This document shows positions 8,961 through 36,457 of a stretch of 64,000 nucleotides of DNA, one piece after another. The stretch spans positions 1 through 64,000 of the forward strand of contig DASUYB010000136.1 in NCBI GenBank assembly GCA_036377595.1. The letters are read 5' to 3'. The position numbers and the translations under genes were made by a program. Positions within the stretch are counted from its first letter, which is position 1, and every line of letters starts with the position of its first letter. Under the pieces are notes generated by a model that saw only the letters and a program-made list of their open reading frames with translations, had not been told where the DNA came from and searched no databases. This DNA is from Longimicrobium sp. GTDB lineage: Bacteria > Gemmatimonadota > Gemmatimonadetes > Longimicrobiales > Longimicrobiaceae.

Positions 8961-9278
8961 ATGGTCCTCTGCCGGAAGTGCGCGCACACCACACGACTGA
9001 GGATGCTCAGCTGCCCGCGCTGCGGCTACGCGCTCCCCTACTGGCGGTCGAAGCGGTGGCGGATGCGCGTGGACCCGGCGGGGGTGACCTCGGGGAAGGA
9101 GTGCCCGCGCTGTGGCAGACCGACCAAGCGCCGGCCCTCGCCCGGCTGGGTGAAGCCGATCCGCGCGCTGTCGCTGCACCACTGCAGCTATCGCACGTGC
9201 GACGGCTGCGGCTGGCACGGCGTGGCCTTCCACGCCCGCTCCTCGCACCGACGGGCGGAGCGCGCCGCGGAAGGCTGA
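8961..9278 (+). CDS. Four-CxxC zinc-ribbon protein
   Basis: A 105-residue basic protein with four CxxC knuckles: CRKC (residue 4), CPRC (near 18), CPRC (near 46) and CDGC (near 78), enough for two zinc sites. A CAGGAG ribosome binding site sits seven bases before the ATG at 8961; the frame is open upstream, but homology and the binding site favour this start. No catalytic motif. It could be a nucleic-acid-binding or structural zinc protein; the specific function is unknown. It converges with the DegP-like gene across a strong shared hairpin. Confidence 0.75.
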   Translation: MVLCRKCAHTTRLRMLSCPRCGYALPYWRSKRWRMRVDPAGVTSGKECPRCGRPTKRRPSPGWVKPIRALSLHHCSYRTCDGCGWHGVAFHARSSHRRAERAAEG

Positions 9279-9296
9279 TCTCCGTCGCGAAGAACG

Positions 9297-9337
9297 AAGA
9301 AGCGGGGCCGCCGGTGCATCCGGCGGCCCCGCTTCTT
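9297..9337. terminator. Bidirectional terminator, 18-bp perfect stem
   Basis: AAGAAGCGGGGCCGCCGG pairs exactly with CCGGCGGCCCCGCTTCTT around TGCAT. T-rich DNA follows on the + side (TTCTTTCTCT). It lies between two convergent genes and can serve both. Confidence 0.85.
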
Positions 9338-9361
9338 TCTCTCTTCCCGCGTCTCGGGCCG

Positions 9362-10879
9362 TCAGTCGGGGAGGCGGATGTTCAGGATCGAGCGGGTGGC
9401 GCCGGCCTGCACCTGCAGCGAGACGATGTCGCCGGGGCGCTTGCGGGCCATCGCCGCGCGGAAGGCGGCCACGTCGTTCACCGCCTGGCCGTCGACGGCC
9501 AGGATGCGCATCTCCTCCTGGATGCCGGCGCGGCTGGCGGGGCCGTACGGCTGCACGCCGGTCACGATCACCCCGCCGTTGCCGGCGTAGCCCTGCCGCC
9601 GCGCGATGTCGGGCGTGAGCGGGCCCACGGCCACGCCGAGCTTGCTGGCGCCGTTGTCGGTCGCCGCGGGCTGCGGCGTGCTTGCCGCCACGCGCTGCGA
9701 CGGGTCGGTCTGCGCTTGGATCAGCGTGACCTTCACCTGCCGGCGGTTGCCGTAGCGGATCACGTCGAGCGTCACCTGGTCGCCCGGGTGGTAGCCGGCG
9801 ATCACGCGCTGGAACTGGCCCACGCGCTGGATCGGCTTCCCGTCCACCGCCACGATCACGTCGCCCTGGCGCATCCCGGCGCGCTCGGCGGGCGAGCTGG
9901 CGGTGAAGTCCTGCGCCACCACCCCCTCGATGCGCTGGAGCCTGTAGACCTCGGCGTCCTCGGGGGTGACCTCGGTGATCTGCACGCCCAGCGCGGGGCG
10001 GCGCACCGCGTGGTAGCGGATCAGGTCGTCGGAGATGCGGCGCGCCAGGTCGACCGGCACGGCGAACCCGTATCCCGAGTAATAGCCGGTGCGCGAGGCG
10101 ATGGCGCTGTTCACGCCGACCACCTCGCCGCGGAGGTTGACGAGCGGGCCGCCCGAGTTGCCGGGGTTGATGGGCGCGTCGGTCTGGATGAAGTCCTCGA
10201 TGGCCCAGCGGCTCCCCGAGGTCTGGCCGATGATCCCCAGCCCCCGCCCCTTGGCGCTGATGATCCCCGAGGTGACGGTGGTCCCCAGGTCCAGCGGGTT
10301 GCCGATGGCCAGCACCCACTCGCCGATGCGGGCGGTCTCGGAGCTCCCCAGGCGCACGGTGGGAAGGCCGCGCGCGTCGACCTTGATCACCGCGATGTCG
10401 GTCAGCGGGTCGCGGCCCACCACGGTGGCGCGCAGGTGCCGGTTGTCCTGCAGCACCACGTCGATCTTGTCGGCGTCGGCCACCACGTGGTTGTTGGTCA
10501 GGATGTAGCCGTCGGCCGAGATGATGAAGCCCGAGCCGCGGCCCTCCTGCGGCGCGTTCTGGTCGGGCATGCGGAACTGCGGGAACATGCGCCGGAAGTC
10601 GTCGGCCTCCGGCCCCTCCTCGCCGCCATCGCCGCCGCCGCGCGGGCGCCGCTCGGTGTCGATGGAGACCACCGCGGGCGTGACGCTCTCGGCGATGGAG
10701 ATGAAGGCGTCGCTGAGGTCGGCCACCGGCTTGACGTCGGTGCGGCTGGGGGCCTGCTGCAGCACGGCGGCGTGGCCGCCGGCGGTCAGGTCCAGCCCCG
10801 AGGCCAGCAGCACCCCGCCGGTAAAGGCAACGGCGGTGGCGGCGATCAGCGTAATCCTGGTGCGCACTGGATCGGGCAT
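9362..10879 (-). CDS. degP: HtrA/DegP-type periplasmic serine protease
   Basis: A 505-residue trypsin-like protease/chaperone with two PDZ domains. Residues about 8-28 form an N-terminal membrane anchor or signal. The protease domain carries the triad His131 (LTNNHVV), Asp161 (DPLTDIAVIK) and Ser242 (NPGNSGGPL). PDZ1 spans about 320-400 (ASSPAERAGMRQGDVIVAVDG) and PDZ2 about 420-500 (GPASRAGIQEEMRILAVDG). The ATG at 10879 is chosen over an in-frame start 17 codons upstream because the basic-hydrophobic signal begins there. A Gly-rich loop (about residues 79-90) follows the first protease strand. It likely handles misfolded envelope proteins, fitting its place downstream of dnaK. Confidence 0.93.
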   Translation of the reverse strand: MPDPVRTRITLIAATAVAFTGGVLLASGLDLTAGGHAAVLQQAPSRTDVKPVADLSDAFISIAESVTPAVVSIDTERRPRGGGDGGEEGPEADDFRRMFPQFRMPDQNAPQEGRGSGFIISADGYILTNNHVVADADKIDVVLQDNRHLRATVVGRDPLTDIAVIKVDARGLPTVRLGSSETARIGEWVLAIGNPLDLGTTVTSGIISAKGRGLGIIGQTSGSRWAIEDFIQTDAPINPGNSGGPLVNLRGEVVGVNSAIASRTGYYSGYGFAVPVDLARRISDDLIRYHAVRRPALGVQITEVTPEDAEVYRLQRIEGVVAQDFTASSPAERAGMRQGDVIVAVDGKPIQRVGQFQRVIAGYHPGDQVTLDVIRYGNRRQVKVTLIQAQTDPSQRVAASTPQPAATDNGASKLGVAVGPLTPDIARRQGYAGNGGVIVTGVQPYGPASRAGIQEEMRILAVDGQAVNDVAAFRAAMARKRPGDIVSLQVQAGATRSILNIRLPD

Positions 10880-30518: not shown

Positions 30519-30680
30519 GTGCCCAGTGCCCAGTGCCCAGTGCCCAGTGCCCAGTGCCCAGTGCCCAGTGCCCAGTGCTCAGTGCCCAGTGCTCAGTGAT
30601 CGCAGACTGGGCACTGGGCACTTTCGCACTTTCGCACTTTCGCACTCTCGCACTCTCGCACTTTCGCACTTTCGCACTTG
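30519..30680. repeat. GTGCCCA heptamer array joined to TTTCGCAC octamer array
   Basis: About ten GTGCCCA/GTGCTCA heptamers (30519-30596), a short GATCGCAGACT link, two reverse-oriented heptamers (GGGCACT), then about seven TTTCGCAC/TCTCGCAC octamers. Opposite orientations allow hairpin folding. Confidence 0.88.
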
Positions 30681-30765
30681 CGCATCCCCCTGACCGGCCC
30701 ACCTCTTGCACCCGCGCGCTGCGTCGAATTGCGCGCTCCGGCCCATCCCGCAAGGAGTTTTCATC

Positions 30766-32070: not shown

Positions 32071-32297
32071 GTTTCGCGCTACGGGATGCCTCGCCGCTCC
32101 CCTGCTCCCGTCAGGGCCACCCTGTAGACCGTCCCACGGCGCATCACTCCATGCCGCGGTCCGTGGCGTTCGTACCAATCTCGTCCCCTTGCACGCCCCG
32201 TCGCGCGAACGTACCGCTGCGTCCGCCGTGATGCGGGCGCCGCCGCTCTCCGGACGGCCGCGGGCGGCGACGGAACCATCACCCGAAGGAGCGTGCC

Positions 32298-32639
32298 ATG
32301 AAAAACAAGATCTCTCTGGACCTCGACGCCCTGACGGTGGAGTCGTTCGAGATGGGAACGGACTTCCACTCCATGCTGGGCACGGTGGAAGGGCACCTGA
32401 GCCCCACCTGCAACACGCGCGCGGCGTGTAGCTGCGGCAGCGCCTGCGAGGGCACCTGCTTCAACACCTGCGACACGTGCGACGCGTCGTGCCTGGGCAC
32501 CTGCGGCACCTGCGCCGGCCAGAACACGTGCGGCGGCTCCACCTGCGTCGGGACCTGCGGCGAGGCCACCTGCGCGGCCAGTTGCTACGACACCTGCGGC
32601 ATCAGCTGCTTCGACACCTGCCCGCCGTGCCCGATGTGA
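32298..32639 (+). CDS. Cysteine-rich RiPP-like precursor peptide
   Basis: A 113-residue peptide preceded by a GAAGGAG site. The leader reads ISLDLDALTVESFEMG, then a short linker to about residue 36. The following 77 residues contain 19 cysteines, 15 of them directly after Thr or Ser (GTC, NTC, ASC and similar), with many Asp and Gly and almost no basic residues. Two downstream peptide genes share the leader motif L-x-L-D-x3-L-x-V-(E/D)-S-F but not the core. This is the organisation of RiPP precursors; Thr/Ser plus Cys would suit lanthionine chemistry. A metal-binding role is the main alternative. No modifying enzyme is in the window. Confidence 0.72.
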   Translation: MKNKISLDLDALTVESFEMGTDFHSMLGTVEGHLSPTCNTRAACSCGSACEGTCFNTCDTCDASCLGTCGTCAGQNTCGGSTCVGTCGEATCAASCYDTCGISCFDTCPPCPM

Positions 32640-32647
32640 CGCGCGAT

Positions 32648-32680
32648 GCCGGAGCCGCGGCCCCGTGCCGCGGCTCCGGC
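32648..32680 (+). terminator. Terminator after the Cys-rich peptide gene
   Basis: GCCGGAGCCGCGG pairs exactly with CCGCGGCTCCGGC, loop CCCCGTG, 8 bp after the stop. There is no strong T run. Confidence 0.65.
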
Positions 32681-32838
32681 ACTTCCGCCGCTCGCGCCGC
32701 AGATTCGTCGGGCTTGACAGGCATGCCGGGTCGATGTAGCTTTCGTCCACCAACACGTCAGGCGCAGCCGAGAGCGGGCACCGCAGTGGCGGAGCTCCAG
32801 CGAGTGCAAACTCGCCTTGGCTGCGCACGTGTTTTTGG

Positions 32839-33567
32839 TCATCTCGGCCAGATCTTCCCGCGGTACACCTGCCCCTCCACGCTCCCCCACAGCTCCTGCA
32901 CCGCCCGCGCCGACGGCGAGGTCTTGTCGCGGTCGCGATGAAACCGCTGGCAGATGTATGCGCAGCAGTCCGCCAGCTGCATCAGCCGGCTGTTGTGCGA
33001 GCGCACCCAGTGCACGTTGTCGATCACCCGCGTCAGCTCGATGGGGCTGTGGCCGAACGAGGTGCCCAGCTCCTTGTAGCGCGCCAGGTCTTCGATGAAC
33101 TGCTGCTCCATCTCCTTCTCGTCGTCCGACACGATCAGGCCGAACTCCCGCCGCGCGCGCAGGAAGCGCTCGATGGTCTCGACCAGGTAGATGAACGCGA
33201 GCTTGTGCGGGTGCATGGGCGCGCGGTAGCGCCTGGCCAGCCGCGCCTTGTCGATCCCCACCCACATCAGCTCCGCCCCGTGCCGCCCCGGCAGCGCGAG
33301 CAGGTCGCGGTACAGCTCGACGCGGTCGCCTGGGCGCATCCCCGCGCACGGCCCTTGGCCGCGGTAGAGGTCGCTCCCCTTGCACTCGAAGCCGGGGCGG
33401 CGGCAGTCGTCGCCGAAGCGGTCCACGAGGAGGGAGGTCGCGCCGTCCTCGAGCCTGCGTGCGCGGGTGCCGTGCACCGCCAGCCCCACGAGGAAGTAGG
33501 CGGTGCTGGTAGGGTGATCCAGGTGCAGACCCGTGTTGCCGGATCCGTCGAGCAGGATGACGTACAT
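32839..33567 (-). CDS. DUF3800-domain protein
   Basis: A 242-residue protein. The N-terminus MYVILLDGSGNTG takes the place of the family's usual Y-x-D-E-S-G opening, followed by YFLVGLAV. The late block LMQLADCCAYICQRFH is the family's closing motif, and VSDDEKEM supplies acidic residues mid-protein. The RNase-H-like fold has been proposed for DUF3800, with acidic active-site residues; here the first motif carries D but G replaces E. It lies opposite in orientation to the small peptide genes and separates the first from the other two. Its role, possibly defence- or mobile-element-related, is inferred. Confidence 0.75.
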   Translation of the reverse strand: MYVILLDGSGNTGLHLDHPTSTAYFLVGLAVHGTRARRLEDGATSLLVDRFGDDCRRPGFECKGSDLYRGQGPCAGMRPGDRVELYRDLLALPGRHGAELMWVGIDKARLARRYRAPMHPHKLAFIYLVETIERFLRARREFGLIVSDDEKEMEQQFIEDLARYKELGTSFGHSPIELTRVIDNVHWVRSHNSRLMQLADCCAYICQRFHRDRDKTSPSARAVQELWGSVEGQVYRGKIWPR

Positions 33568-33770: not shown

Positions 33771-34123
33771 CGACGGCTCGTCCCACGTTCGTCGCGCGTC
33801 CGGCGAACAGGCCGCACCGTTCGCGTGCGGGTCCCGCTCGGCCGGAGATCTCCGGGTGCGGCGTGGGCCCGTCCACCCGAATCATGGAGCGTAGAGGATG
33901 AACAAGCTGTCGCTGGACGTCGAAGAGCTGCGGGTCGATTCCTTCGAAACCAACGAGCGCGCGGGCGATGACAGGGGATTCGCCTGGAGCGACGATTCCG
34001 TCTGCCCGACGACGGCGCCGTCGGATCGGCGGCCCTGCTACTGATCTTCACCGGCCCGGCGCGGCGGATGGACGGCGCGCCGGGTATCTGTTCGTGTCTC
34101 CCATGCGACGGCTCGTCCCACGA
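33771..34123 (+). repeat. Direct repeat upstream of peptides B and C
   Basis: CGACGGCTCGTCCCACG occurs at 33771-33787 and 34107-34123, 111 and 96 bp before the starts of peptides B and C. Less exact similarity continues downstream (GTCGCG..., GCACC-TTCGCG...), so the whole gene unit seems to have duplicated. Confidence 0.7.
33898..34044 (+). CDS. RiPP-like precursor peptide B (48 aa)
   Basis: A 48-residue ORF, too short for most gene callers. The leader LSLDVEELRVDSFETN matches peptides A and C, and the C-terminal part WSDDSVCPTTAPSDRR ends in PCY with only two cysteines. The same W-S-x-D-S-x-C-P-T segment appears in peptide C. The ATG follows a purine-rich GGAGCGTAGAGG. Upstream DNA shares a 17-bp repeat with that of peptide C. 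Precursor status is inferred from the leader. Confidence 0.65.
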   Translation: MNKLSLDVEELRVDSFETNERAGDDRGFAWSDDSVCPTTAPSDRRPCY

Positions 34124-34218: not shown

Positions 34219-34389
34219 ATGAAGAGGCTGATGCTGGATCCCGACGACCTGCGGGTCGAATCGTTCGGCACCGGGCGCGAGGAGCGCGCGGTGCGCGGCC
34301 ACGAGTACAGCGGCGGCTGGAGCTGCGATTCCATCTGCCCCACGGTGACCGACCCCGAGCGCTGCTGCCGGACTCCGCGTCCGTACTGA
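34219..34389 (+). CDS. RiPP-like precursor peptide C (56 aa)
   Basis: A 56-residue ORF. The leader reads LMLDPDDLRVESFGTG; the core GGWSCDSICPTVTDPERCC holds four cysteines and several Thr/Ser, ending TPRPY. It is clearly paralogous to peptide B through leader, core segment and upstream DNA, and shares only the leader with the Cys-rich peptide. A perfect terminator hairpin lies 20 bp after the stop, supporting a real transcription unit. Confidence 0.67.
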   Translation: MKRLMLDPDDLRVESFGTGREERAVRGHEYSGGWSCDSICPTVTDPERCCRTPRPY

Positions 34390-34409
34390 TCGCGTCGCGG
34401 GCGGAGACG

Positions 34410-34444
34410 ACGATGCCCCCGCGGAGGCTCCGCGGGGGCATCGT
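34410..34444. terminator. Bidirectional 16-bp terminator
   Basis: ACGATGCCCCCGCGGA pairs exactly with TCCGCGGGGGCATCGT, loop GGC. It lies between peptide C and the convergent DEAD-box gene. Confidence 0.85.
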
Positions 34445-34465
34445 TGTCTCGTCACCATGCGATCG

Positions 34466-36244: not shown

Positions 36245-36344
36245 GTTTGTTTCCGATCCGTCTGGTCCGGGTGCGCGTTGGTTTCTGAAGGGCGGCCAAT
36301 ATAGGGGACAGCAAGTATTCTGCCTACTGAGTGTTTGGAGACGA

Positions 36345-36457
36345 GTGCTGAGTGCCCAGTGCCCAGTGCCCAGTGCCCAGTGCGTTCGCACGAAACCTCC
36401 ACCGCGCTGAGTTCTCCCCTCCCCTGCGAAGCGGGGGAGGGGCCGGGGGAGGGGGCC
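36345..36457. repeat. Heptamer array plus C/G-rich box
   Basis: GTGCTGA and four GTGCCCA heptamers at about 36348-36382, then GCGCTGAGTTCTCCCCTC and the C/G-rich box to 36457. It lies upstream of the DEAD-box gene (minus) and the CoA-transferase gene (plus). Confidence 0.85.

Follow-up and report, generated by a model that had tools for sequence, protein, structure and literature searches.

LanB and LanC, the class I lanthipeptide enzymes, are usually thought to serve one or a few local precursors. In a survey of class I clusters they stand together with a transporter and a protease, and one cluster with 10 precursors is a notable exception; the survey covered seven genes around LanC, so unlinked precursors escape it, and no Gemmatimonad is named in the main text (PMC7268733). 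The same source describes a split LanB for pinensin, a class I product of Chitinophaga, and states that class I LanCs from Bacteroidetes clusters encoding pinensin-family precursors are related to LanM domains (PMC7268733). Prochlorosins and synechococsins, the products of ProcM and SyncM, derive from many scattered precursors that share a leader, have variable cores and are encoded away from one promiscuous enzyme; for SyncM, as many as 79 substrates are given for a single strain (PMC9872173). Here we describe a precursor gene in a 64,000-nucleotide contig stretch from Longimicrobium sp. (hereafter the window). It probably encodes a class I-type lanthipeptide precursor that would be processed by LanB and LanC encoded elsewhere, machinery that would serve at least 150 precursors.

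The gene (32298..32639, + strand) is an open frame for 113 residues, MKNKISLDLDALTVESFEMGTDFHSMLGTVEGHLSPTCNTRAACSCGSACEGTCFNTCDTCDASCLGTCGTCAGQNTCGGSTCVGTCGEATCAASCYDTCGISCFDTCPPCPM, with 19 Cys, all of them in the C-terminal part. Its leader (residues 1–33; 32298..32396, +) begins MKNKISLDLDALTVESF, ends GTVEG and follows the pattern L[DEN]x[DE]xLxV[ED]SF ... GTVxG of an alignment of relatives (A1), in which L7, L12 and F17 are invariant and V14, S16, G28, T29 and V30 are at least 90% conserved. The core (residues 34–113; 32397..32636, +) combines the 19 Cys with 20 Ser/Thr, nine of which have a Cys at +5, and this leader-core layout with Ser/Thr and Cys in the core is that of a class I precursor. 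Sixteen of the 19 Cys directly follow Thr (12) or Ser (4), whereas 20,000 shuffles of the 80-residue core average 4.75 ± 1.66 such pairs and never exceed 12. A sequence-only reading of this DNA had the 19 Cys right but put those after Thr or Ser at 15. Its 77-residue core is correct when Thr37 is taken as the start, though the end of the conserved leader is more likely to lie near GTVEGH (residues 28–33). Its remarks that the Thr/Ser-Cys pattern recurs every three to four residues and that basic residues are almost missing agree with our counts (Cys-Cys gaps of 4 residues in 10/18 and of 3 in 3/18; one Arg and no Lys in the core). It had further known of no described family with this exact spacing: this appears true of the core within the literature searched, but the type of leader can be recognised, as 27 of 45 relatives match the NF038180 leader_pinensin model at E ≤ 1 (best 4.1e-8). 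The peptide of 32298..32639 itself gave no match to that model (cut-off 24 bits).

A ribosome-binding-site-like GAAGGAG (32285..32291, +) was read from the sequence 6 nt before the ATG, and Shine-Dalgarno-like sites precede 190 of 198 extracted family members (66 after shuffling), which therefore look like translated genes. The gene also has a syntenic ortholog (G003:C64:55129-55431; 22.4 bits on NF038180), flanked by the same SRPBCC-type gene and DEAD-box helicase, in which all 16 aligned core Cys, 15 of 17 Ser/Thr and 17 of 32 other residues are kept. Approximate dN/dS values from this one pair (core 0.29, leader 0.79, whole 0.44) indicate purifying selection on the core. Given the GAAGGAG motif, the corresponding sites in relatives and an ortholog with this core dN/dS, the ORF is a genuine gene. 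A possible terminator, a 15-bp GC hairpin without a T run, lies directly 3' of the stop (32647..32681, +; fold -41.2 kcal/mol, z -4.6); the similar hairpin of the ortholog is not significant against shuffles (z -1.15), and a search of RNA families gave no match. Its orphan position and a search for a sigma-70-like promoter that found none would suit a decaying or unexpressed paralog, real but no longer made. We consider this very improbable, however, in light of the selection on the core, the full retention of Cys in the ortholog, and the presence of both a ribosome-binding site and a downstream hairpin.

The ORF is one of at least 150 paralogs without a modifying enzyme nearby, which the sequence-only reading had missed. 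A protein search of its own genome with the ORF gave 77 matches at E ≤ 1, mostly via the N-terminal part, and a profile of 45 relatives (A1) recovered at least 150 same-leader precursors on 48 contigs, all at E ≤ 4.6e-8. This count is a lower bound and probably short of the actual total, since only 150 of 374 candidates were scored and even the weakest of these reached E 4.6e-8. Among 21 genomes of the host's family, precursors are present in 10 and absent from the other eleven; besides the ORF's own genome, the counts are at least 150 (G003), 140 (G006), 81 (G009), 70 (G010), 48 (G016), 16 (G001), 11 (G007), 5 (G013) and 1 (G005). A plasmid tblastn and a scan of a wider genome contig collection with the ORF alone as query gave no match.

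Two further same-leader precursors follow in the window. The second (33898..34044, +) has 48 residues and 2 Cys, lacks the GTV motif and matches the profile at E 5.4e-9, with 13.7 bits on NF038180, under the cut-off of 24; the third (34219..34389, +; 56 residues) has the core WSCDSICPTVTDPERCCRTPRPY and a G003 counterpart at L057:10723-10887. A DUF3800 gene (32839-33567, -) lies between the precursors and is absent from the matching G003 interval (L057), while a very stable hairpin (34403-34450; z -7.7) separates the third precursor from the convergent DEAD-box helicase gene. Tandem GTGCCCAGTGCC-type repeats, whose translations show SAQCPVPSAQCPV, occur at about 30520-30690 and at 36335-36400. 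Elsewhere, L039:9731-10072 and 9238-9564 (G000:C83) encode precursors with 25 and 21 Cys, in which stretches such as CCCCCCPCCC directly follow the leader.

The LanB N (PF04738) and LanB C (PF14028) domains occur in exactly the same 10 of 21 genomes as the precursors. Identical ten-genome sets would arise by chance once in 352,716 were the genomes independent, which they are not; the co-occurrence is uncorrected for phylogeny, and the LanB matches include some other types. LanB (glutamyl transferase and lyase) and LanC are present in the ORF's genome, with no match to either on the ORF's contig, and the contigs that carry both (C98 and C103) hold just 11 of the at least 150 precursors, linkage being judged per contig in fragmented assemblies. 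Thus, physical linkage to LanB/LanC was found for the leader family but not for the ORF at 32298..32639 itself. On C103, the order is LanB, a separate PF14028 protein, LanC, two precursors within ~0.6 kb, more precursors, an ABC transporter and HlyD. This LanC keeps WCHG and CHG, the motifs expected for a zinc cyclase, with residue roles as in NisC. The nearest relatives of LanC here are LanM-type cyclase domains (TIGR03897, E 7e-73). Similar clusters occur in G009 and, in part, in G003, G010 and G016, with transporters 71–89% identical between clusters; in G009 the transporter and HlyD are followed by a subtilase, and in G006 the transporter adjoins 13 precursors.

Thr/Ser-Cys arrays also lie at enzyme loci. 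The C98 LanB region of the ORF's own genome includes a CSNCSDC core (L085:13824-14096; a weak profile match, E 0.001) similar to that of G005 described below. In an Acidobacteriota MAG, the operon L192 reads LanB (PF04738), PF14028, precursor, LanC, ABC transporter and S8 protease, and its precursor core is a (GSTC)n repeat, ...CGSTCGSTCGSTCGSTCGSTCGSSC...; it offers the plainest example of an operon of this kind in which a Thr/Ser-Cys array is the one precursor found. The sole precursor detected in G005, whose (S/T-x-C)n core reads SCGDCSSCTSCTSCSGC..., lies directly upstream of the LanB gene. That core weakly resembles heterocycloanthracin (TIGR03601, E 0.046), and YcaO is present in G003, G004, G005 and G016, as would befit azol(in)e-containing peptides (TOMMs) whose Cys, Ser and Thr are heterocyclised by YcaO. 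Yet the ORF's own genome has no YcaO, nor do G006, G009 and G010 with their 70–140 precursors, and we regard this as the least probable of the alternatives. As separate observations, three near-identical ORFs of 67–73 residues (DPFxENVLDLQSFDE...CVSVPSCVSVPSC; L088:10099-10993, G000:C145) directly downstream of a 954-residue LanC-domain protein probably form a lanthipeptide cluster of another class, and a PF04738 (LanB-like) match lies next to, or within, a very large NRPS-like frame (G000:C1:12835-14748, L087).

Spacing within the cores offers a further view of the likely chemistry. Across 180 cores, the probability of Cys after Thr or Ser is 0.42–0.44 at +1 and 0.38–0.41 at +5, against 0.09–0.17 for ten other tabulated residues at these positions. 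To avoid selection bias, we repeated the count on 69 cores, with peptides picked by leader motif only, cores cut at residue 36 and clustering at 55% identity: Ser/Thr precede Cys 276 times at +1 (107.4 expected) and 215 times at +5 (97.7 expected), with offsets 2, 3, 4, 6, 7 and 8 at or under expectation. Ser/Thr stand at both -1 and -5 of the same Cys 137 times (18.8 expected), and 38 times (15.3 expected) where Cys is absent from -4. Ser and Thr are thus coupled to Cys alike and alone, as dehydration followed by Cys addition predicts, and the signal fits substrates of such enzymes while suiting metal or disulfide scaffolds poorly.

The sequence-only reading had left a chelator, a disulfide scaffold and a multi-lanthionine peptide side by side; the precursors in LanB/LanC operons, the shared set of 10 genomes and this spacing favor the last. 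A disulfide-rich secreted scaffold, left undehydrated and sharing only an export leader with true lanthipeptides, could account for 19 Cys with little else and for the lack of LanB/LanC nearby, and Thr/Ser-Cys adjacency by itself could be structural. Such a scaffold nonetheless seems unlikely: the Ser/Thr -5/-1 signal is common to Cys-rich and Cys-poorer cores, (GSTC)n and (S/T-x-C)n cores sit within LanB/LanC operons, and the number of Cys is odd. Likewise, high Cys content and CxxC/CxxxC spacing recall a metallothionein-like metal chelator, but CC and CxC are rarer among family members than expected (offset 1, 48 vs 208; offset 2, 129 vs 204), Lys is absent and the Ser/Thr-specific coupling would be left unexplained. 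Searches of Pfam and NCBIfam for the metallothionein or structural family match proposed as a refutation of the earlier idea found none. We hold a chelating role to be highly improbable.

For the favored lanthipeptide, the most likely residue pairing is T/S(i) with C(i+5). Partial motifs favor forward over reverse pairing: the forward case exceeds expectation (62 vs 31), whereas CxxxC motifs in which Ser/Thr precedes the second Cys only fall short of it (15 vs 33), and reverse rings from C(i) to T/S(i+3) were rejected on this ground. A point against the lanthipeptide reading is that a ring to the same Cys cannot explain the Ser/Thr directly before it, although we hypothesize that this -1 residue could open the next, overlapping ring. 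Tentatively, the repeat unit [ST]xxx[ST]C might yield a chain of overlapping thioether rings, each Ser/Thr joined to the Cys at +5 and the next ring starting one residue before that Cys, with two class I enzyme sets making at least 150 such 'chain-mail' peptides per cell; we hold this detailed picture to be possible but somewhat doubtful.

With LanB and LanC absent near the ORF, modification of its precursor would have to act in trans. The leader, LDLDALTVESF...GTVEG, may recruit LanC and a split LanB, in which glutamyl transferase and glutamate lyase are separate proteins; these enzymes would be encoded on C103 and/or C98. LanB would then dehydrate many core Ser/Thr, and LanC would add Cys to the dehydrated residues to give a predicted series of (methyl)lanthionine rings. 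The leader would then be cut off by a subtilisin-like protease and the putative product secreted by an ABC/HlyD exporter, and the same enzymes would serve all of the at least 150 precursors. Whatever activity the peptides have could, we speculate, lie in interference or signalling.

If this reading is correct, class I LanB/LanC modify well over a hundred substrates in trans, about double SyncM's 79, and would provide a class I enzyme set of natural origin for making libraries. To our knowledge, a set of at least 150 precursors would be the largest lanthipeptide repertoire known. The [ST]xxx[ST]C spacing would be a new code for ring placement, open to direct testing. The phylum, which is poorly cultured, would hold a large and unexplored set of peptides, most of which would escape cluster-based mining since the majority of precursors are encoded at a distance from the enzymes. 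We found no description of the family in the literature searched, which included Longimicrobium and Gemmatimonad lanthipeptide papers and covered few subscription journals.

The loci carrying enzymes resemble the surveyed class I clusters in combining LanB, LanC, transporter and protease. Pinensins share the leader type across relatives, though the ORF itself falls outside the model, a split LanB, here a separate PF14028 protein beside the LanB N part, and the LanM-like LanC known from Bacteroidetes clusters with precursors of that family. They differ in that the Chitinophaga peptides compared have 2 Cys, whereas the ORF core has 19 in a repeated Ser/Thr-Cys array, and in that most of the at least 150 precursors here are unlinked to LanB. 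The scattered layout is closer to that of the prochlorosins, which nevertheless rely on class II LanM and Nif11 leaders (no Nif11 family match to the ORF emerged from the Pfam and NCBIfam searches), while the system described here pairs class I LanB/LanC with a pinensin-like leader and has roughly double the number of precursors or more.
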